Assembly: GCF_014651915.1 (NCBI RefSeq)
Contig: NZ_BMXU01000003.1
Coordinates: forward strand, 1-64,000
Length of the DNA: 64,000 bases
Origin: Parvularcula lutaonensis
GTDB taxonomy: Bacteria > Pseudomonadota > Alphaproteobacteria > Caulobacterales > Parvularculaceae
Reading direction: 5' to 3'
Shown piece after piece: positions 31,434-61,675 of this stretch; position 1 is the stretch's first letter; the number at the start of each line of letters is the position of its first letter. Below the pieces are notes generated by a model, which worked only from the letters and a program-made list of their open reading frames with translations, searched no databases and had not been told where the DNA came from. Both the position numbers and the translations under genes were made by a program.

Positions 31434-31796
31434 TCAGCCCTTGATGACGTCCTTGATGGTGTTGTCTTCATTCATCAGCACGACGGTCGGCTCGTGCTCC
31501 AGCGCCTCGTCGGCATCGACGTCACAGAAAGCAGCGATGATGACCCGGTCGCCCACATGGGCGTGGCGCGCCGCCGCGCCGTTCAGCATGATCTGGCCGC
31601 TGCCCGGCTCACCGGCCAGGGCATAGGTCGTCAGACGGGCGCCATTGGTGATGTTCCAGACATCGACCCGCTCATTGGGCAGGATGCCCGCCGCTTCGAG
31701 CAGTTCGGAATCGATCGCGATCGACCCCTCATAGTGAAGGTCGGTCATGGTGAGCGTAGCCTGGTGCAGCTTCGCCTTCAGCATCGACAGACGCAT
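31434..31796 (-). CDS. panD: Aspartate 1-decarboxylase
   Basis: 120 aa, the normal PanD length. It converts L-aspartate to beta-alanine for pantothenate and CoA. The proenzyme self-cleaves at Gly-Ser in [10 protein letters not shown] (Gly24-Ser25) to make the pyruvoyl cofactor. Other marks are Lys9 ([12 protein letters not shown]), Tyr58-type NGARLTTYA and GDRVIIAAF. No other pantothenate genes are adjacent. Confidence 0.95.
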
Positions 31797-32150
31797 GGCA
31801 TCTCCCCGGGCAGCACGCCCTTGTACAACGTGCCCAATAGCAGACAGCGCCTATGCTGCAACTGCGTTCTACCCTTAAGAATCCTTTGGCCTACACCCGT
31901 TTTGCGTGTGGCCGATTGCCGACTTCACAACTTACCTTAAGTGCGCCAGTCCGTTCAATTGTGAAACAATCACGCCGAAACCCGCATGTTTGCTAGCGTG
32001 ACTGTGTCACCCACCCTTCCGGAGGCTCAAGATTTCTCGGCTGTAACTGTGTCTTATGGTTGCATAAAAATGAAAACTCTGCACTAACTTCCGTGTAACC
32101 ATGGCAGAGTTCCGCGCGGCCCCCTCCCGCGTCGGGTTCGAGGAAGCGTG
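31797..32150. other. 354-bp intergenic region upstream of the DLHIDPL protein
   Basis: No gene recognised. It is AT-richer than its surroundings. It contains the interrupted palindrome GTGAC-TGT-GTCAC at 31998-32010, a possible operator, and an A/T-rich block around 32055-32080 (GGTTGCATAAAAATGAAAAC) that could hold the promoter of the downstream gene. GAGGAA precedes the ATG at 32151. Confidence 0.35.
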
Positions 32151-35100
32151 ATGAAAAAGTTTTTTCTAAGTTCTGGTGTTATCGCTCTCGCGATTGGTAG
32201 CGCGGCTTCAGCGGCTGATACCGCATCGTTCACCCCGCAGGATCTGCACATCGACCCGCTCGATCTGCATATTGATCCGCTGGATCTCCACATTGATCCC
32301 CTCGACCTGCATATTGATCCCTTGGATCTGCACATCGATCCGCTTCAGAAGATACTCAGCACAAGGATCTTCGAGGCAAACGACCTGCACATCGATCCGT
32401 TAGCGTTGCACCTGGACGTGCTGGACCTGCATATCGACCCGCTCGATCTGCATATTGATCCGCTGGATCTCCACATCGATCCCCTCGACCTGCATATCGA
32501 CCCGCTGAAGCTCGGGGCGCTGGCGATGCACTGGGACTCCCTCTCGGGCAACCAGGCGATGCTGTCGGGAGGGGCCGATCTTTTCTGGGGCACCTTCCAG
32601 CCCATGGATCTGCATATCGATCCGCTCGATCTGCACATTGATCCGTTGGACCTGCATATTGATCCGCTGGCGTTGCACCTGGACGTGCTGGACCTGCATA
32701 TCGACCCGCTCGATCTGCATATTGATCCGCTGGATCTCCACATCGATCCCCTCGACCTGCATATCGATCCGCTTGCAGCCTGGTTCGATCCGTCGAGGAG
32801 CCTAACGGCGGCTCATTTGTGGATCGATCCTCTGGATCTGCATATCGATCCGCTTGACCTGCACATCGATCCCTTGGATCTGCATATCGATCCCCTCGAC
32901 CTGCACATTGATCCTCTGGACCTGCACATCGATCCGCTGGCGATGCAGCTCCAAGCGCTGGCGCTCCATCTCGATGTCCTCGACCTGCATATTGATCCGC
33001 TGGATCTGCATATCGATCCCCTGGATCTCCACATCGATCCCCTCGACCTGCATATCGATCCTCTGGACCTGCATATCGACCCGCTGGCGATGCAGCTGCA
33101 GGCACGGGCGCTCCATCTCGATGTCCTCGACCTGCATATTGATCCGCTGGATCTCCACATCGATCCCCTCGACCTGCACATCGACCCGCTGGATCTCCAC
33201 ATCGACCCTCTGGTCTTGAACAGCCTTCTCGCTTTCGAACGGCTTAGTGATCCTTCGCAGGCTGACAATCTCCACCTGATATTGGAGCCTCTGCAGCAAC
33301 TTGGTGCGATCGCTGACCAGCTGGACGTCCTCCACGCCCGGCTCAGCGCGCTTGATGTCGAAACCCTCGACCTTCACATCGATCCGCTCGCCGAAGGGCA
33401 GGTCCAATCCATCCTCGGCGCGCTCGAAGGCATTCAGGGCCTGTCCGCCCAGTTGCGGCAGATCGGTGAGATCGCCATCGCTGTCACCAACGCCTACGAT
33501 CAGTACCAGGCGCTCTACGCGCGTGCAGAGGCCAGCTATGGCGCGCTTATCGAAGGTGAGACGGGCAAGGGCTTCGAGGACGGGTTCCTCACCGGATTCC
33601 TCGCCAAGCACGGCCTGTCGGGCGACGGCTTCATCGACTTCCTCCAGATGTCGGAAGGAGAGCGCGCCCAATTCCTGATCGACCTCAACGATCAGCTCTT
33701 CACCTTTGCTGGGGTCGACCACCCGGATCACTGGATGGGCGCTGTCAACTGGTCGCCGCGTCTGTCGGAGGTCGCGGGCTTTGGCGAAGGCGTCACCATC
33801 GGCGTGGTGGACCAGGCCTTCGCAGGAAATGGCGCGCTGGGCGATGCACCCGAGACGCTGGGTGCCATCGTCGAAGGGCAGGATCACGGCCTCGCGGTCA
33901 CCGGCGTCCTTGCCGGCGCGCTCGACGGCGAAGGCGTCATGGGCGTTGCTCCCGAGGCGTCCATCGTGCTCGCCAACCCCTTCGACCGGCAGTCCGAAGC
34001 CGACGAGAAATCGGTGATGCGCGCCATTCGCCGCGTCGGCCAATCCGGTGCCAGCATCATCAACCTGTCCCTCGGCGAGGAAGGCGCCGCCTTCTCGGAG
34101 GGCTGGGCAGAGGTGTTCCAGAACGCTGGCGTCCAAAGCGCGACCGATAGCGCGCTCTTCGTCATGGCCGCGGGCAACACCGGCGTCGAGCAGGACTACG
34201 ACGTCGATATGGCCGGCACCAACGGCGCCATCGAGCGGCTCATCCTCGTCGGCTCGATCGACCCCAGCGGCGACATCGCAAGTTTCTCGAACACCCCAGG
34301 GGATGCCTGCTTCACCACGGCCGATGGCTGCACGCCCATGATGGAGCGTTTCCTCGTTGCCCCCGGACAGCAGATTCTCGTCTCCACCCCGGACGGCGTT
34401 GGTCGTGCCTCGGGCACCAGCTTCGCAACACCGATGGTCTCTGGTGCGGCCGCGCTCCTGCAGAGCCGCTGGGCTTGGCTGGCTGACAACCCTGAGGCCA
34501 CCGCCGAGATCCTTTTCCGGTCGGCCGACGATCTCGGTGCGCCGGGCGTCGATGAAGTCTTCGGCTGGGGGCTTCTCAACATCAGCGCGTCGCAGCGTCC
34601 GCTCGATGCTGGTGCCCTCTTCTTCCGTACGGGCGGTGGGGATCGTTCGATCACCAATGCCGGATTCACCCCGAACCTTATGGCCCGCGTGAACCGGGGG
34701 GCCACGGTCACCGTCTTCGAAACCGTCGGCGACACCTTCCGCGACTTCAAAATCCCCGTCGGCGTCCTCGAGGCTGGCGTCATCGATCCCCGCGTCACGC
34801 TCCAGAACGACGCCGAGGCCTATTTCGGTGACCGCGTCGGTGCTTCATCTGGACAGAACCAGGCTGTCGCGGGTCTCTCCTTCTCCGGATCAGGCCGCTT
34901 CAGCGACGTGGCGCCGAAAGGAACAGTCGCGTTTGGCGGCCAGGACGCAGGCTGGGTCCTGTCGCTTGAAGCCCGTGAACCCTCCCACGGTCTCGTCGTC
35001 CCCGAAGGCGACCTCGCCTTTGAGACCCACGCCACGCTCGAGGCTACGGAAACCGGGATGACCTTCCGCTTCGGCCATGGTGACGGGGCGCTCGGCTTCT

Positions 35101-35939
35101 CCGGTTCGGCTTTCGGTCTGACGTCCGACCACGACATCCGCACGGGCGGTGTCAATCCGATGCTTGGCCTCGCTTCGGGCGGTGCCTACTTCCAGGCGCA
35201 GCTCCCTGTGACGGAAAGGCTGACCCTCTCCGGCGGCGTTTCGTCCCGTGATCGTGCCGACCTCGTACTCAACCCGTTCTCGGGTGAAATCTCCGAACGT
35301 GTCGCCGGAACTGAAGGCTACAGCGCTGCAGCTGCCAACGCCGCGATCGTCTATTCGATGTCTGACCGCTTGACCCTCAATGTCGGCGTCACTGCCTTGC
35401 GCGAGACCGATGGCTTCCTCGGCGGCCAGTCCGTCGGCGCCCTCAGCTTCGGCGAGCAGGCTCTCAGCCGATCGGTCACGGTCGGTTTTGACAGCGATCT
35501 GGGCGCCGGTTTCAACGTCGCCGTCAGTGCAACCGCGGGCCGGACCACGGGTCGTGGTTCGGATGACGGCCTTCTCGCGGTTGGTGACGAAGGCGTTGTT
35601 TCGACCGCTTACCAGGCCGCGCTCGGGAAAACGGGGGTGTTTGGCGATGACGACCGCCTCCGCATCTCCTTCGCTCAGCCGCTCCACATCGAGGAAGGCA
35701 GTCTCGCCGTTCAAAGCCTGGGCGTGATCGACCGCCAGACCGGCACGCTCGGCCTGATGCCTGATACCATCGGCCTTGGATCGGCGGACCGTCGCTATGT
35801 CGGCGAAGTGCTCTATGGCCGACCCGTCTTCGATGGTCGCGCCCAATTGTCTTTCTTCGGGCAGGTCGACACGAGTCCCTTCCTGTCACCCGGTGAAGCA
35901 GCCACAACCGGAGGCCTGCGCTTCTCGATCGGCTTCTAA
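32151..35939 (+). CDS. Secreted subtilisin-family autotransporter with DLHIDPL heptapeptide repeats
   Basis: 1262 aa from ATG 32151 (GAGGAA 8 nt upstream). Signal peptide MKKFFLSSGVIALAIGSAASA. Residues about 31-354, plus one copy at about 407, hold 32 exact copies of DLHIDPL, four ALHLDVL variants and a WIDPL, broken by short spacers into blocks of 3-5. A helical linker follows (to about 540). Then comes an S8 subtilase domain with Asp in IGVVDQAF (about 554), His in QDHGLAVTGVLAG (about 579) and Ser in GTSFATPMVSGAAALL (about 757). The C-terminal about 260 residues form an autotransporter-like beta-barrel ending RFSIGF. It should reach the cell surface. The repeats probably form an extended, possibly metal-binding, surface module; that is inference. 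A strong terminator follows. Confidence 0.85.
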   Translation: MKKFFLSSGVIALAIGSAASAADTASFTPQDLHIDPLDLHIDPLDLHIDPLDLHIDPLDLHIDPLQKILSTRIFEANDLHIDPLALHLDVLDLHIDPLDLHIDPLDLHIDPLDLHIDPLKLGALAMHWDSLSGNQAMLSGGADLFWGTFQPMDLHIDPLDLHIDPLDLHIDPLALHLDVLDLHIDPLDLHIDPLDLHIDPLDLHIDPLAAWFDPSRSLTAAHLWIDPLDLHIDPLDLHIDPLDLHIDPLDLHIDPLDLHIDPLAMQLQALALHLDVLDLHIDPLDLHIDPLDLHIDPLDLHIDPLDLHIDPLAMQLQARALHLDVLDLHIDPLDLHIDPLDLHIDPLDLHIDPLVLNSLLAFERLSDPSQADNLHLILEPLQQLGAIADQLDVLHARLSALDVETLDLHIDPLAEGQVQSILGALEGIQGLSAQLRQIGEIAIAVTNAYDQYQALYARAEASYGALIEGETGKGFEDGFLTGFLAKHGLSGDGFIDFLQMSEGERAQFLIDLNDQLFTFAGVDHPDHWMGAVNWSPRLSEVAGFGEGVTIGVVDQAFAGNGALGDAPETLGAIVEGQDHGLAVTGVLAGALDGEGVMGVAPEASIVLANPFDRQSEADEKSVMRAIRRVGQSGASIINLSLGEEGAAFSEGWAEVFQNAGVQSATDSALFVMAAGNTGVEQDYDVDMAGTNGAIERLILVGSIDPSGDIASFSNTPGDACFTTADGCTPMMERFLVAPGQQILVSTPDGVGRASGTSFATPMVSGAAALLQSRWAWLADNPEATAEILFRSADDLGAPGVDEVFGWGLLNISASQRPLDAGALFFRTGGGDRSITNAGFTPNLMARVNRGATVTVFETVGDTFRDFKIPVGVLEAGVIDPRVTLQNDAEAYFGDRVGASSGQNQAVAGLSFSGSGRFSDVAPKGTVAFGGQDAGWVLSLEAREPSHGLVVPEGDLAFETHATLEATETGMTFRFGHGDGALGFSGSAFGLTSDHDIRTGGVNPMLGLASGGAYFQAQLPVTERLTLSGGVSSRDRADLVLNPFSGEISERVAGTEGYSAAAANAAIVYSMSDRLTLNVGVTALRETDGFLGGQSVGALSFGEQALSRSVTVGFDSDLGAGFNVAVSATAGRTTGRGSDDGLLAVGDEGVVSTAYQAALGKTGVFGDDDRLRISFAQPLHIEEGSLAVQSLGVIDRQTGTLGLMPDTIGLGSADRRYVGEVLYGRPVFDGRAQLSFFGQVDTSPFLSPGEAATTGGLRFSIGF
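32241..33212 (+). repeat. Tandem 21-bp coding repeats (DLHIDPL units) in blocks
   Basis: The 21-bp unit repeats in phase with the reading frame. Codons differ between units (GAT/GAC, CTG/CTC, CAT/CAC, ATT/ATC, CCG/CCC, CTG/CTC/TTG) while the peptide stays the same, so the protein sequence is kept by selection. Higher-order copies also exist: about 105 bp starting near 32402 (GCGTTGCACCTGGACGTG) recurs near 32667. A block starting with ATGCAGCT near 32942 recurs near 33089. Confidence 0.95.
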
Positions 35940-35962
35940 CTGCGGCGACATCCGGAACGACG

Positions 35963-35992
35963 AAGCCCGGCTCATATGAGCCGGGCTTTTTT
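35963..35992 (+). terminator. Rho-independent terminator after the autotransporter
   Basis: AAGCCCGGCTCAT (35963-35975) is fully complementary to ATGAGCCGGGCTT (35976-35988) and is followed by a run of T. It closes the DLHIDPL gene. Confidence 0.92.
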
Positions 35993-36120: not shown

Positions 36121-38619
36121 ATGAGGGTTTGGACATTACAGCTGGCCGCTGCTGCGCTGATCGCCATCAGTGCGATTCTTCCTGCCCGTTCATATGCACT
36201 CCAGGCCGGTGACACCCCGGATGCCCTGCTCGACCAGGCCCAAGCAACCCTCGTGTCGGAGACGGAATCCGGTCTCGCGCTTGCCCGCAGGGCCGAGGCT
36301 GCCGAACGTGCGAGTCCCCAGCCGAGGCCTGACATCCTCCTGCGTGCCGCCTGGCTCGAAGGCGAAGCCCTTTTCCGTCTGGGGCGCGTCGACGAGGCCG
36401 CCATTCACCTCGAAGACGCCCTCAACCGGACGCCGCCAACCAATTCTGACATCTATGGCAAGCTCCTCATCGCGTCAGGCCGCGTCGCCCGGGCCCGTGG
36501 AGACAATGGACTGGCGCTGAAGAATTTCCAGGATGCCTTCGCGGTCTTCTCGGAGACACAGAACCGCCGCTACATGGCCATCGCGCTGCAAAGCGTGGGC
36601 ACGCTCTACACCAATGCCCGGCAGTATGAGCGCGCGATCGAATATGACGAGCGCGCCGCTGCGATCTACCCCGACGACGCAATGATCCGCATCGCTTCGC
36701 TCAAAAACCGCGGCAACGCTTACCGCTATCTCGGCCGGTTCGACGAAGCACGCGTCATGCTGACCGAAGCGCTCAGCACCGAAGCCGTGCAGGGTATTCC
36801 CAGCATCGCGGTGCGAATCTACACCAATCTCGCAGCGCTGGAATTCGATGCGGGAAACATGGCGAGCGCCAAGCGCGCCGTCGAGAGCATCAAGCGCCTC
36901 ATCGAAGAGAACGAAGCGATTCGTATGCCTGTCGTGGCCTCGGCGATCGAAGCGTCGATCCTCGCGAGCGAAGGAGGAACGCAGGAGGCCGCGGCGCTTC
37001 TCGACGCGGCTTTCGAAGGGGTCGACCTGACCCAGACGAGCGAGGACTTCAAATCTGCACACGAGCGCGCCTATGAAGTCTACAGCCGTGCCGATCGTCC
37101 GCGTGCGGCGCTCGCGCACCTTGAGGCATTCAAGCGGCTCGAGGACATCGAGCGAGATATCGCCGCCTCTGCCAATCTTGCGCTGATGAATGCCGAGTTC
37201 GAGCTCTCCAACAAGGAGCTCACCATTGCCAATCTCCGTTCCGAACGCCTCGAGGCCGACGTCGCCTTAATCAAGGCACGCCGACAGCAGGAGCAGGGCA
37301 TCGCCGCAGCGATCATCCTTCTGGCCATCGCCATCAGTGCCTTCTTCATCTGGCAGACGATGCAGTCTAGCCGTGTGCGGAGAATAACCGAGAGACTCAA
37401 CAAGGAACTCGAAGGTGTCAACCAGAAGCTCCGTCGCTCCAATATCGAATTGGAGAAGGCAAACTCTGCCAAGACCGAGTTCCTCGCCACGACCAGCCAT
37501 GAAGTTCGTACCCCGCTCAATGCAGTCATCAACCTGACCGCCGCAGTTCTCGATAACAACGATCTTGGTCCGGATGCGAAGAAAAAACTTTCGACAGCCC
37601 TGAAGTCTGCAGAACACCTCCACGAAATCGTCAGTGATGTGCTCGATGTTGCGCGCTTCGAAGGGAAGCGGGTCAAGGCGCATGTCACGGAGGTTGACCT
37701 GCCTGATACCGTCGTTGACGTGGTCAACCTCTGGCGTCCCAAGGCAGAGGAAAAAGGACTCACCTTCGAGACCGATATCGATATCCGCTGCGATCGTTTC
37801 CAGACGGACGAGAAGCTGCTGCGGCAGCTCCTTTCCAACCTTCTGTCGAACGCCATCAAGTTCACCTCCGAGGGGGTCGTGAAGATGAAGGTCCAGGGCG
37901 GGATAGACATGCCGCTCAGGATCGAAATCAGCGACACCGGCATCGGAATAGCCAAGGAAGACCAAAAGGTCATCTTCGAGAGCTTCCGCCAGGTTGAAAC
38001 TGGTGGCACTCGGAGCTTTGGCGGCACCGGACTGGGACTTGCAATTTGCCGCCAGATCACCGGCCTTCTCGGCGGTAGCATTACAGTTGAGAGTGACGCA
38101 GGCGAAGGCTCGACGTTCACAGTCGAGCTACCCGTCCAGGCTTCAGTCGATACGAGTGCGTCTGACAAGGCGCCGACCGCCGAGGAGCTCGTGGACATCG
38201 ACAAGACACTGTCCGGGCTTCGGGTCCTCGCAGCGGAGGACAATGCGGTGAACGCCATGGTGATCCAGGCCATTCTCAAGACGAAGGTCGAGACACTGAC
38301 GATTGTCGAGAACGGCCTTGAGGCGGTGAACGCGGTCATCGATGGCGATTTCGACGTGGTTCTCATGGACAAACAGATGCCGGTCATGGACGGCGTGGAA
38401 GCCATACGGCGAATCCGATCCATTGGCGGGGCTGCGGCGAATATCCCGATTATCGCGGTCACTGCGGACGCGTTCAGCGCGGCGCGGGAGGAGCTCATTC
38501 AGGCGGGTGCGGACGATTACCTCTCGAAGCCCGTCAAGCCGGACGACCTCAAACGATCGATCGCCCAAACACTCGCGCGCCAGAAAAAGGGGACAGACGC
38601 AGCGGCATCGGCTAAGTGA
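36121..38619 (+). CDS. TPR-containing hybrid sensor histidine kinase/response regulator
   Basis: 832 aa from ATG 36121 (GAGGCG upstream). Signal sequence VWTLQLAAAALIAISAILPARSYA. About residues 30-380 hold TPR-like helical repeats on the periplasmic side, and one membrane span lies at about 395-415 (IAAAIILLAIAISAFFIW). Then come a coiled coil, a HisKA domain (TTSHEVRTPLNAV, phospho-His) and a HATPase domain (LSNAIKFTSEG, DTGIGIAKED, GGTGLGLAI). The C-terminal receiver has acidic residues AAEDN, phospho-Asp in VVLMDKQMPVMDG and YLSKPVKPDD. No output domain follows, so phosphate must pass to another protein. Its GTGA end overlaps an alternative start of nagA, linking it to cell-wall recycling. 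Confidence 0.9.
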   Translation: MRVWTLQLAAAALIAISAILPARSYALQAGDTPDALLDQAQATLVSETESGLALARRAEAAERASPQPRPDILLRAAWLEGEALFRLGRVDEAAIHLEDALNRTPPTNSDIYGKLLIASGRVARARGDNGLALKNFQDAFAVFSETQNRRYMAIALQSVGTLYTNARQYERAIEYDERAAAIYPDDAMIRIASLKNRGNAYRYLGRFDEARVMLTEALSTEAVQGIPSIAVRIYTNLAALEFDAGNMASAKRAVESIKRLIEENEAIRMPVVASAIEASILASEGGTQEAAALLDAAFEGVDLTQTSEDFKSAHERAYEVYSRADRPRAALAHLEAFKRLEDIERDIAASANLALMNAEFELSNKELTIANLRSERLEADVALIKARRQQEQGIAAAIILLAIAISAFFIWQTMQSSRVRRITERLNKELEGVNQKLRRSNIELEKANSAKTEFLATTSHEVRTPLNAVINLTAAVLDNNDLGPDAKKKLSTALKSAEHLHEIVSDVLDVARFEGKRVKAHVTEVDLPDTVVDVVNLWRPKAEEKGLTFETDIDIRCDRFQTDEKLLRQLLSNLLSNAIKFTSEGVVKMKVQGGIDMPLRIEISDTGIGIAKEDQKVIFESFRQVETGGTRSFGGTGLGLAICRQITGLLGGSITVESDAGEGSTFTVELPVQASVDTSASDKAPTAEELVDIDKTLSGLRVLAAEDNAVNAMVIQAILKTKVETLTIVENGLEAVNAVIDGDFDVVLMDKQMPVMDGVEAIRRIRSIGGAAANIPIIAVTADAFSAAREELIQAGADDYLSKPVKPDDLKRSIAQTLARQKKGTDAAASAK

Positions 38620-59200: not shown

Positions 59201-61675
59201 TCAGTATAGTGACCAGATGTCTTCGGGCGACACCATGTTGAACGGGGGCTTCCGGAAATGCGCGAAGTCGCCGAAGTGTGTCGAGCCAGCACCGAGCCCG
59301 AAATTGTAGATCAGCCGTTCGGTGGTGGGCCGGTGATATAGCTTCTTCTTGCCCGTCAGCAACGTCACGGTCTCATCCCAGGCGAAAAACTTCTTGAGCG
59401 TGTCCGAAGGGCTCCTTCCAGGCGTGACTTCGATCCACTTCTTGACATCGTCCGTAAGCGACTCATCCACGAAGCGAAGGTACTCTTCCTCCGACATCAG
59501 GTAACAGTCCAGGAGTTCCTGCCAGATCGGCTCGAACTTGTCTTTCGTGGTGGCCCAGCCCCAGCCTTGGAACCGGGTGAAGAGCTCGCGCTCTCCGGGA
59601 ACAAGGAAAGGATGACCGTAAACGGAGAAGACATCGTCGCGGTTCTCGATGGCGTCGAGCTCTGCCGAGAAACCGCGGATGCAATGACGGGTCGGGAAAC
59701 AGTCATCCTCGAGGACGAGAACCCGGTCGTACATCTCGAACATCCTGCGCAGGGCAACGATGATCATTTTACGGAAGCCGTAGTTACCGCGGTTCCTGTG
59801 AATCGCCTTGACGTCGTAGGAAGAAACGACAGCTTCTGTCTCGTCGAGGAGCTTCCGTTTCGCCGGCCGGCCCTGGTCTCCGTCAATCCAGACGTGACAT
59901 TCGCCAAGACCGTCCTGGAGCTTCAGGCTTTCCAGGACGCTCCGCACACACTCCGTGCGATCGAATGTGAAAAGCGCAACGCCGAGCGGCTTCGATGGTT
60001 CATATCCGGCGTAGACGGAGTTCTCCTTCGCTTCGTCGCTGAGGGTCTTTGGCCTCGCAGGGGGGAGATTGCCGGAAATCTTCTCTTCGGATGTTGCCGT
60101 TTCGGTGACGGCGGCGGGGGTCATGCTCCGCGGTGGCGCTTCAGGAAGGTTAGCAGGCAGGAACAGTCCGTTCTCGCCAAGTTCGATTTCCCCGCGCTTC
60201 ACCCGGCTCCGTTGGGCAAGAACGACTCTCAGGGGGCGGAGTGTAAGAAGAGACTTAAGCCTCGGCTCGGTAGCGACCTGCAGATGGCGGAGTTCGGAGC
60301 TGTAAACCGAAAGGAGCTGCTGCGCATCACTGAGGCGTCGGCGCGCAATGTCCGCTTCGGCTTCGGCGCTGGAGCGGTCGGAATACGCTTTCTTGAGTTT
60401 CCGTTCCGTTTCGTCGAGGGCTTCCTGAATTCGCTGGCGTTCGGACTGGAAGGCGGATGATCGCTGGCGTGCGTCTTCGAGTTCGCCGTGAAGCAGTCGT
60501 ATTTCCTCTTCAAGCCCCGCCACATTCTTACTGCGATCTTCGAGCTCGGCCCGAGCGTTTGCGAGTTCGCCGTGAAGCAGTCGTATTTCCTCTTCAAGCC
60601 CCGCCACATTCTTACTGCGATCTTCGAGCTCGGCCCGAGCGTTTGCGAGTTCGTCCTTCGCCCGCTCCGCCGATACGGTGACTTCGGCGAGTTGCGTGGC
60701 CAGGGCGGTGGCCTCTGATATGCGGGCGTCAAGTCGGCCCTTGACGTCCTTGAGCTCTTCTTTTGCGAAGTGCAGAACGCGCTCTGCGCTTTGCGCCTGG
60801 GCCTGAAACGGCTTGAGTTGCGCGAGCGCCTGGTTGGCCTTTTCAAGCTCGAGCCGCCTCTGCTCCGCGCGCTGCCGGGCGTCGGCAAGTTCTGATCCCG
60901 CCTTGTCGAGCTTCATTTCAGCGGTACGCTGATGCTGCCTCGAGCTCCATAATTGTGGCGCGAGGTCGGCCAGGTAAGATGCGACCCGTGCCATATCGGG
61001 TGTCGCCTCGATCGAATAGCCGAGGCGGTCAATTTCATCTTTGTAAAGAGCGGCGATAGAGTCCCGCGCATCGTCGGGTAGCGCTTTGATATGTGGATCA
61101 TTACTCCCGACACGGAAGAAGCGCGGTTCGACACGTCGAAGCTCCGAGAAGTCGGTTCCTGTCATCGACCTCGGTTCCTGCTCAATGAAGTCACCGATAG
61201 CGCGGACCGTCTTTTCGAGATCGTCAGTGAGCTCTTCATAGCGCAGGAGGAGCGTATTGCTGCGCCGTTCCGGCGACCAGGCCCTGACATGGTGATCCCA
61301 CCTGCCGAAAGTCACGGCCCCGGCCACGACGTCGGCAAGCGAAAAGCCTAGTGTCCCGTACTCCCGCAGGTATGCGTGGTAGGAGGAAACTGCTGCCCGC
61401 GGGTCCCTGACGACATAGATTGCCTTGGCGTCGTCCGCGGGGTGGTCGTGCGTCTTGACGAAGTGGCGGGCCTGATCGTTCGACAGGCGGTCATAGGCCT
61501 CGGGCCATGATCCTTCATAGTGTTGATGCCCCACCAGCCGTGCGAATTCGCGGTTCGCTTCGATGTCACGTTCGTCATTGTACTGCGAGTAGGAGCCTGC
61601 GCCAAAAAACCTGTTCAGGACGATGCGCAGGAACGTATTCCCGGAACGTGGATAGGAAGCGAGCCAGATAATCAT
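59201..61675 (-). CDS. Sulfotransferase - coiled coil - glycosyltransferase fusion
   Basis: 824 aa. Residues about 1-230 are a PAPS-dependent sulfotransferase: [11 protein letters not shown] (5'-phosphosulfate loop) and [15 protein letters not shown] (3'-phosphate site). Residues about 245-465 are a long coiled coil containing a perfect 28-residue duplication. Residues about 565-824 look like a GNT-I/HlpA-like sugar transferase: [42 protein letters not shown] (DxD-like EDD). A single protein could thus glycosylate and sulfate a surface glycan, with the coil as spacer. Substrates unknown. Confidence 0.8.
60479..60652. repeat. 84-bp perfect tandem duplication in the coiled-coil region
   Basis: Two identical 84-bp units start at about 60481 and 60565; the third position diverges after GTTCG at 60649. 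It is in frame and adds 28 residues (four heptads) to the coil. Absence of any synonymous change shows a recent event. Confidence 0.93.

Follow-up and report, generated by a model that had tools for sequence, protein, structure and literature searches.

A 64,000-nucleotide stretch of the marine alphaproteobacterium Parvularcula lutaonensis (assembly GCF_014651915.1, contig NZ_BMXU01000003.1, positions 1 to 64,000), here called the window, carries two adjacent genes that encode a protease of the S8 (subtilase) family with an N-terminal array of heptapeptide repeats, and a sensor built on tetratricopeptide repeats (TPR) (Table 1). The protease gene is read from an ATG at 32151 to 35939 on the plus strand, giving an open reading frame (ORF) of 1262 amino acids (aa); a program-made ORF list begins the same frame at a GTG at 32148. 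Peptidase_S8 is the one Pfam family that passes its cut-off in the protein (aa 573-807, E 2.8e-33), and Asp554, His579 and Ser757, which from the S8 family pattern we take to be the catalytic triad, are identical in 50 of 50 aligned proteins, the window protein included (alignment A2, using 49 of 61 reference proteins, frames below 900 aa having been excluded beforehand). The profile and fold of the S8 family and its Asp/His/Ser residues are all present, supporting the assignment of the product as an exported S8 protease with predicted proteolytic activity. Family conservation in the linker preceding this domain begins at aa 449.

The original prediction had described an S8 domain with a complete Asp/His/Ser set, 32 exact DLHIDPL units in spaced blocks together with ALHLDVL variants, and a barrel-like C-terminus ending in Phe. 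The first two descriptions stand, a script count returning these units and a single HLWIDPL, and the block-wise array (aa 31-413) was also found by Tandem Repeats Finder. The third is borne out by the terminal Phe and by beta strands predicted with high confidence, but not by any Pfam barrel model over its cut-off, one TonB-barrel match being sub-threshold. The Autotransporter barrel family (PF03797) gave no match in the window gene even at E 10, with another gene of the same genome passing, and the C-terminus had no sequence relative in the PDB at E 10. PDB fold searches with the whole model were filled by subtilisins, and a viral library returned weak porin and autotransporter rows for the model, with the aligned range not given. 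The C-terminus is likely barrel-like, as judged from the model.

Table 1. Features of the protease and sensor genes in the window
Feature	Position	Strand	Basis
Sec signal peptide, probable, aa 1-21	32151..32213	+	cleavage after ASA, by eye
Heptad array, aa 31-413: 32 DLHIDPL, 4 ALHLDVL, one HLWIDPL, spacers	32241..33389	+	script count
Helical linker, about aa 353-531, partly overlapping the array end	33207..33743	+	AlphaFold2 model helices
S8 protease domain; codons of Asp554 (33810-33812), His579 (33885-33887) and Ser757 (34419-34421)	33810..34571	+	Pfam
Beta-rich C-terminus, about aa 924-1262, probable outer-membrane barrel, Phe last	34920..35936	+	model strands
Terminator-like hairpin between the protease and sensor genes	35962..35989	+	hairpin search, script
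TPR sensor, hybrid histidine kinase, 832 aa	36121..38619	+	Pfam TPR, HisKA, HATPase_c, Response_reg
Conserved TPR input half, probably periplasmic	36190..37386	+	TPR profile A4 match
Output half: HisKA, HATPase_c, receiver	37468..38562	+	Pfam

Conservation of the heptad word

The 32 DLHIDPL units of the window are spelled by 23 distinct DNA sequences, with a mean of 3.56 of 21 bases differing per pair, all of them synonymously (estimated dS, synonymous substitutions per synonymous site, 2.17); the zero amino-acid change among these units is partly by construction, as they were picked for exactness, and near-variants of the word within Parvularcula arrays are few. In two Parvularcula orthologues, the synonymous differences between units lie beyond the range of dS correction. 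The P. mediterranea gene (L049) contains 34 SLHIDPL units, with Ser encoded 18 times by AGC and 16 times by TCN, two codon classes not connected by any single synonymous step, and the P. maris gene (L050) contains 44 EMHLDPL units with 35 different DNA sequences. Between these species the words differ in every exact copy, at position 1 (D, S or E), position 2 (L or M) and position 4 (I or L), and a fourth genome assigned to the same genus carries NLHLDAL, T or S replacing N in five units. Because synonymous sites between units are near saturation, the conserved item is the protein word, which is held within each gene and changes between species. A DNA repeat devoid of protein meaning was rejected, one word being retained while the synonymous sites are near saturation.

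Codon usage in the array is unlike that of the gene body (e.g. GAT for Asp), so some common ancestry of the units is still visible, and block duplication is evident in 26 of 28 codons of four units at aa 92-119, which recur unchanged at aa 181-208. Adjacent units show more synonymous differences than units in shuffled order in all five arrays tested: the window (4.26 vs 3.55, P 0.0056), L049 (6.00 vs 4.76), L050 (4.56 vs 3.86), L113 (4.08 vs 2.77) and L096 (4.64 vs 3.48). The loss of, or counter-selection against, slippage-prone identical neighbours would explain this excess; in L113 it arises because the duplication unit is 14 residues long, units at lag 2 being alike there. Long open frames on the minus strand opposite the array (e.g. 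window 32802-34136) are apparently a by-product of the repeat, with no evidence of a gene.

A profile of the linker and S8 domain (A1) found 309 relatives among 340 candidate genome-contig stretches, of which the best 80 were kept as loci; named records include Parvularcula, Maricaulis, Marinicauda, Aquisalinus, Phenylobacterium, Sphingomonas, Erythrobacter, Novosphingobium and other Alphaproteobacteria. Five of the 80 lacked the motif used for locating the S8 frame and were excluded from protein statistics (a TPR neighbour is present in all five), giving 76 genes with a recognized frame, the window included, and four more were dropped from the periodicity test. In all 72 testable N-termini (71 loci and the window) a 7- or 14-residue periodicity exceeded that of all 200 shuffles, the best lag being 7 in 50 and 14 in 19. 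The commonest word type is G[D/N/S]Ix[P/A]F[W/Y] (G-type), and outside Parvularcula most words are G[D/N/S]IxPF[W/Y]; the Parvularcula flavour is [D/E/S][L/M]H[I/L]DPL, and words such as GSVSPFW, GSIDPIW, GNLRPFY and GEIQPFW belong to single genes. Genes contain 4-52 units (median 11), with the highest numbers in the three Parvularcula genes. These three also conserve a 33-aa spacer ending in FWGTFQPM, FWGTFRPM or FWGTFDPL, which by eye looks like the remnant of a G-type word. On this sequence evidence, the window repeat is one flavour of a broad alphaproteobacterial heptad family in which each gene has its own word. A viral origin was rejected: 16 candidate stretches in viral contigs were searched by tblastn, and none encodes a relative.

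The array is not associated with a confident predicted structure. In the AlphaFold2 model of the window protein, which lacks the first 62 aa, the predicted local distance difference test (pLDDT) score of the array is 24-41 per ten-residue block, no confident structure is seen over aa 63-350, and the array in the model of a relative scores below 50, low pLDDT not being proof of disorder.

Pairing with a TPR sensor gene

The adjacent sensor contains HisKA, HATPase_c and receiver domains, all above their Pfam cut-offs, which constitute the hybrid histidine kinase set. The TPR repeats follow a hydrophobic N-terminus and precede a transmembrane-like helix, after which come HisKA, HATPase_c and the receiver; by script, the hydrophobic N-terminus and the helix following the TPRs are present in 57 of 62 sensors, suggesting that the TPR half is probably periplasmic. 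The pairs share this input half, and their outputs vary between a hybrid kinase and EAL or GGDEF-EAL: ten sensors scanned with Pfam, on which the output types rest (short-motif guesses being unreliable and not used), comprise three kinases and seven EAL-ending proteins, five of these seven with a GGDEF match (one below cut-off).

The pairing of the S8 gene with this sensor is well supported, and holds in both directions. A homologue of the TPR half is present in 73 of the 80 related loci, as confirmed with eight TPR queries, and is encoded by the next gene in 72 of the 73, a receiver gene intervening in L075; in four of the seven loci lacking a sensor (L074, L093, L119, L122) the S8 frame ends at most 85 bases from the contig end. 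When scored with the TPR profile, a sensor accompanies 69 of the 76 S8 genes whose frame was recognized, 62 of these sensors lying downstream on the same strand, and the gap between the two genes has a median of 91 bases over the 69 pairs. By contrast, the sensor is present in 0 of 20 control loci encoding related S8 proteases that lack an array (no more than one heptad-like hexamer in any frame); these are a selection of weaker S8 matches, in which a Ser-motif frame was recognized in 17 and the other three were located by the S8 match. In the reverse direction, a search of 100 genomes (the window's own included) with the TPR profile alone (A4) returned 23 sensors, and 21 of these adjoin an S8 match when positions are compared by coordinates; every S8 gene inspected in these pairs, a set without the own-genome paralogue, carries an array. 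One further sensor (G087) lies at a contig end on the partner side, and the remaining one (G029) is a weak match. Among 241 genomes of the class (own included), the sensor is present in five, and the S8 core at E 1e-60 in three, all within those five. One of these genomes (G335) combines an adjacent pair with an additional sensor and an additional S8 gene that stand apart, the G185 sensor lies at a contig end, and the sensors and S8 genes of G208 lie near contig ends.

Several other observations concern these loci. The own-genome S8 paralogue (L035, G000:C1:311178-313496) has an in-frame TAG stop and still adjoins a TPR sensor (G000:C1:309788-310972), and related species have a G-type copy of it that looks intact. 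L059 and L117 each contain two heptad S8 genes in succession, with the sensor between them in L117. A terminator-like hairpin was rejected as a family feature, as by script one follows the S8 stop in just 11 of 62 downstream pairs, the window included; the hairpin search of the region gave four such sites, compared with 2.7 expected. A frame resembling PanD (aspartate decarboxylase, by eye) lies at window 31434-31796, 0.35 kb upstream of the heptad gene, and a second (also by eye) at L102 724-1092, 4.4 kb upstream of the heptad gene. Elsewhere in the window, an 84-base tandem repeat (60471-60653, 2.2 copies, 97% matches) lies within a minus-strand frame (59201-61675).

Co-variation of heptads with the TPR half was examined in 62 pairs, 7 of the 69 having been lost beforehand. 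The heptad-profile distance tracks the TPR distance more closely than it does the distance in the rest of the S8 protein, both in raw correlations (0.431 vs 0.357) and in partial correlations (0.285 vs 0.122; 0.180 vs 0.091 with Parvularcula removed; 0.337 vs 0.049 in an earlier run). In 34 kinase-type pairs, the partial correlation of the heptads is 0.46 with the TPR half and -0.03 with the kinase half, but the S8 protein retains 0.26 with both sensor halves held. Other co-variation tests, described below, disagree with these results, which are suggestive only.

Possible function of the pair

Our preferred, though tentative, reading is that the two genes form one sensing module whose TPR domain has the heptads as its ligand; we hold this to be a serious proposal falling somewhat short of probable. 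The first gene would supply the exported S8 protease, with its probable outer-membrane barrel and apparently unstructured N-terminal array, and the second a TPR receptor, probably periplasmic, whose output can be exchanged between a hybrid histidine kinase and EAL/GGDEF-EAL. Whether still joined in the array or released as fragments by the protease, the heptads would bind the TPR domain, and the receptor would inform the output how much of the autotransporter or its peptides is present, or in what state. Repeating one word many times would increase the effective concentration of ligand, and having to fit a single receptor would hold the units of a gene alike, yet leave the word free to drift from one species to the next. 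This reading rests on the pairing (73 of 80, 21 of 23 in reverse, 0 of 20 in the control), with the TPR half kept while outputs differ; on a word identical within genes and changed between species with scrambled codons, and on heptads that track the TPR half; and on the precedent of the RRNPP systems, in which, according to passages of PMC10075063, a TPR receptor is as a rule encoded next to a short propeptide gene. It is possible that the array is displayed or released by its own protease. A bolder version, Gram-negative peptide signalling by an autotransporter polyprotein with 4 to about 50 copies of a heptapeptide specific to its lineage, cut by its own subtilase and sensed by the adjacent periplasmic TPR receptor, the constancy of the word inside a gene and its change from species to species being pherotype evolution, is in our estimate unlikely.

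A number of points weigh against the sensing module. An exported array and a periplasmic receptor would need an extra step to meet: if the TPR half is periplasmic, either the array is sensed before leaving the periplasm, or peptides return. A terminator-like hairpin separates the S8 and sensor genes of the window. Three loci (L065, L094, L102) have arrays with room alongside and no sensor; a weak sensor match (G029, E 7.8e-38) has no partner; G335:C31 contains a sensor with no neighbouring array; and the G108 sensor lacks a heptad gene within 14 kb. In other genera, many of the arrays are heterogeneous. The nearest-neighbour test of co-variation is weak, the TPR neighbour having the closer heptads in 14 cases vs 9 for the S8 neighbour (P 0.089), counts that become 15 vs 8 (P 0.048) once Parvularcula is removed and 12 vs 8 (P 0.156) in the G-type subset; single-column mutual information between the heptad word and sensor columns showed no TPR enrichment; and the Mantel-type and other co-variation tests ignore phylogeny. 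The G108 locus (L155, G108:C1:3344000-3358000) encodes a sensor kinase beside an EAL-like frame (by eye) and a receiver protein, and is a possible orphan receptor.

The compartment problem is removed if the array instead serves as a secretion checkpoint. In type V secretion, passenger export runs from the C- to the N-terminus, so the array would be the last part of the passenger to leave, sensed in the periplasm by the TPR receptor, which would thereby monitor the export of its neighbour with no free peptide involved. The same pairing data apply, but the change of word between species and the invariant protease residues are left without an explanation of their own, and the barrel and topology are only predicted; we regard this alternative as doubtful, if slightly less so than the polyprotein version above. 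Subtilases usually carry a propeptide N-terminal to the S8 domain, which is where the array and linker lie, and the array could accordingly be an intramolecular propeptide, chaperone or pseudosubstrate of that domain, the sensor then responding to what the protease does to other targets. In favour, the region N-terminal to S8 contains no Pfam inhibitor domain, but an element acting in cis needs no 4 to 52 near-identical copies, and the heptad profiles track the neighbouring TPR half at least as well as the protease on their own chain, making this explanation quite improbable.

Adjacent regulators often control neighbouring genes, and the sensor might thus govern expression of the autotransporter gene without ever contacting its product, the two being merely co-inherited. 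This would sit well with the hairpin between the window genes, but it does not account for an input half common to pairs whose outputs differ (kinase vs EAL/GGDEF-EAL), and cyclic di-GMP (c-di-GMP) enzymes do not act directly on promoters; it seems to us more improbable still than a propeptide. The original prediction had favoured a regular solenoid or rod binding metal ions or mineral through H-x-D, which is present in every exact unit of the window gene. The solenoid finds no counterpart in the low-pLDDT models, and across 62 genes the position equivalent to the heptad His is most often D (D 31, N 12, H 5, S 4, E 3), a distribution that does not support metal or mineral binding as the role of the array. 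A metal-binding solenoid was rejected on these grounds, and a metal- or mineral-binding surface rod appears very remote.

Relation to known systems

The original prediction had also recognized no described family in the repeat, and this is consistent with our searches: no Pfam family matches it, and DLHIDPL and five G-type strings were absent from the open-access full texts searched, subscription papers lying outside the search. The broad heptad family and the pairing with a TPR sensor were not part of that prediction. Literature searches linking subtilases, subtilisins or autotransporters to TPR or EAL proteins, c-di-GMP, histidine kinases or peptide pheromones returned no account of the pair among the matches listed. 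The parts are each of a known kind, and the array and the pairing are, as far as searched in the open-access literature, undescribed.

Subtilisin-like autotransporters (Group 15, comprising Ssp, NalP, SphB1, EprS and others) share with the window protein a signal peptide, an S8 protease and a C-terminal translocator region (PMC9977779, PMC9289746; these and the sources below are cited for parts of their text), the first and last of these features being probable in the window protein. In Group 15 the protease is N-terminal and followed by a beta-helix stalk, whereas in the window protein the array and helical linker precede the protease; the Group 15 layout was not found there, with no separate beta-helix search made, and the window C-terminus matches no PF03797 model. 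The cited parts of these accounts describe no heptad array and no sensor partner, and the terms ‘heptapeptide’, ‘tandem repeat’, ‘Alphaproteobacteria’ and ‘histidine kinase’ are absent from the main text of the Group 15 review.

The RRNPP systems (Rap-Phr, PlcR-PapR, NprR-NprX) likewise consist of adjacent genes for a secreted peptide source and a TPR receptor (PMC10075063), and PapR acts as a heptapeptide (PMC6568020). The array would be the counterpart of the RRNPP propeptide as peptide source, the TPR adjacency itself being that seen in the 73 loci. The RRNPP propeptide is 10-100 aa long and its receptor is a cytoplasmic protein of 250-500 aa in Bacillota (PMC10075063); by contrast, in the alphaproteobacterial pair of the window the array sits on a protease of 1262 aa, and the receptor, a membrane sensor, has 832 aa. 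Other TPR-input hybrid histidine kinases and GGDEF-EAL proteins similarly have, behind their TPRs, either the set of HisKA, HATPase_c and receiver or an EAL domain, alone or joined to GGDEF, but the window-type TPR family differs in almost always adjoining a heptad S8 gene in the genomes searched. A similar evolutionary pattern is known in the rotifer mate recognition protein MMR-B, whose repeats are near-identical within a gene and diverged between lineages; that protein is unrelated, has 2-9 repeats, and shows fewer synonymous differences than housekeeping genes (PMC3495898), whereas synonymous sites in the window units are near saturation.

The array is a striking example from nature in which amino-acid identity is strict and the codons are scrambled. 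Descriptions of signalling typically centre on small molecules made by enzymes in Pseudomonadota and on propeptide-TPR pairs in Bacillota, according to the cited parts of PMC10075063. If the sensing module is real, a widespread alphaproteobacterial pair of heptad protease and TPR receptor would constitute a directly testable counterpart of the Bacillota pairs, wired to phosphotransfer or c-di-GMP enzymes, and would provide subtilases that have no known function with one. If the polyprotein version were true, it would be a categorically new signalling system.

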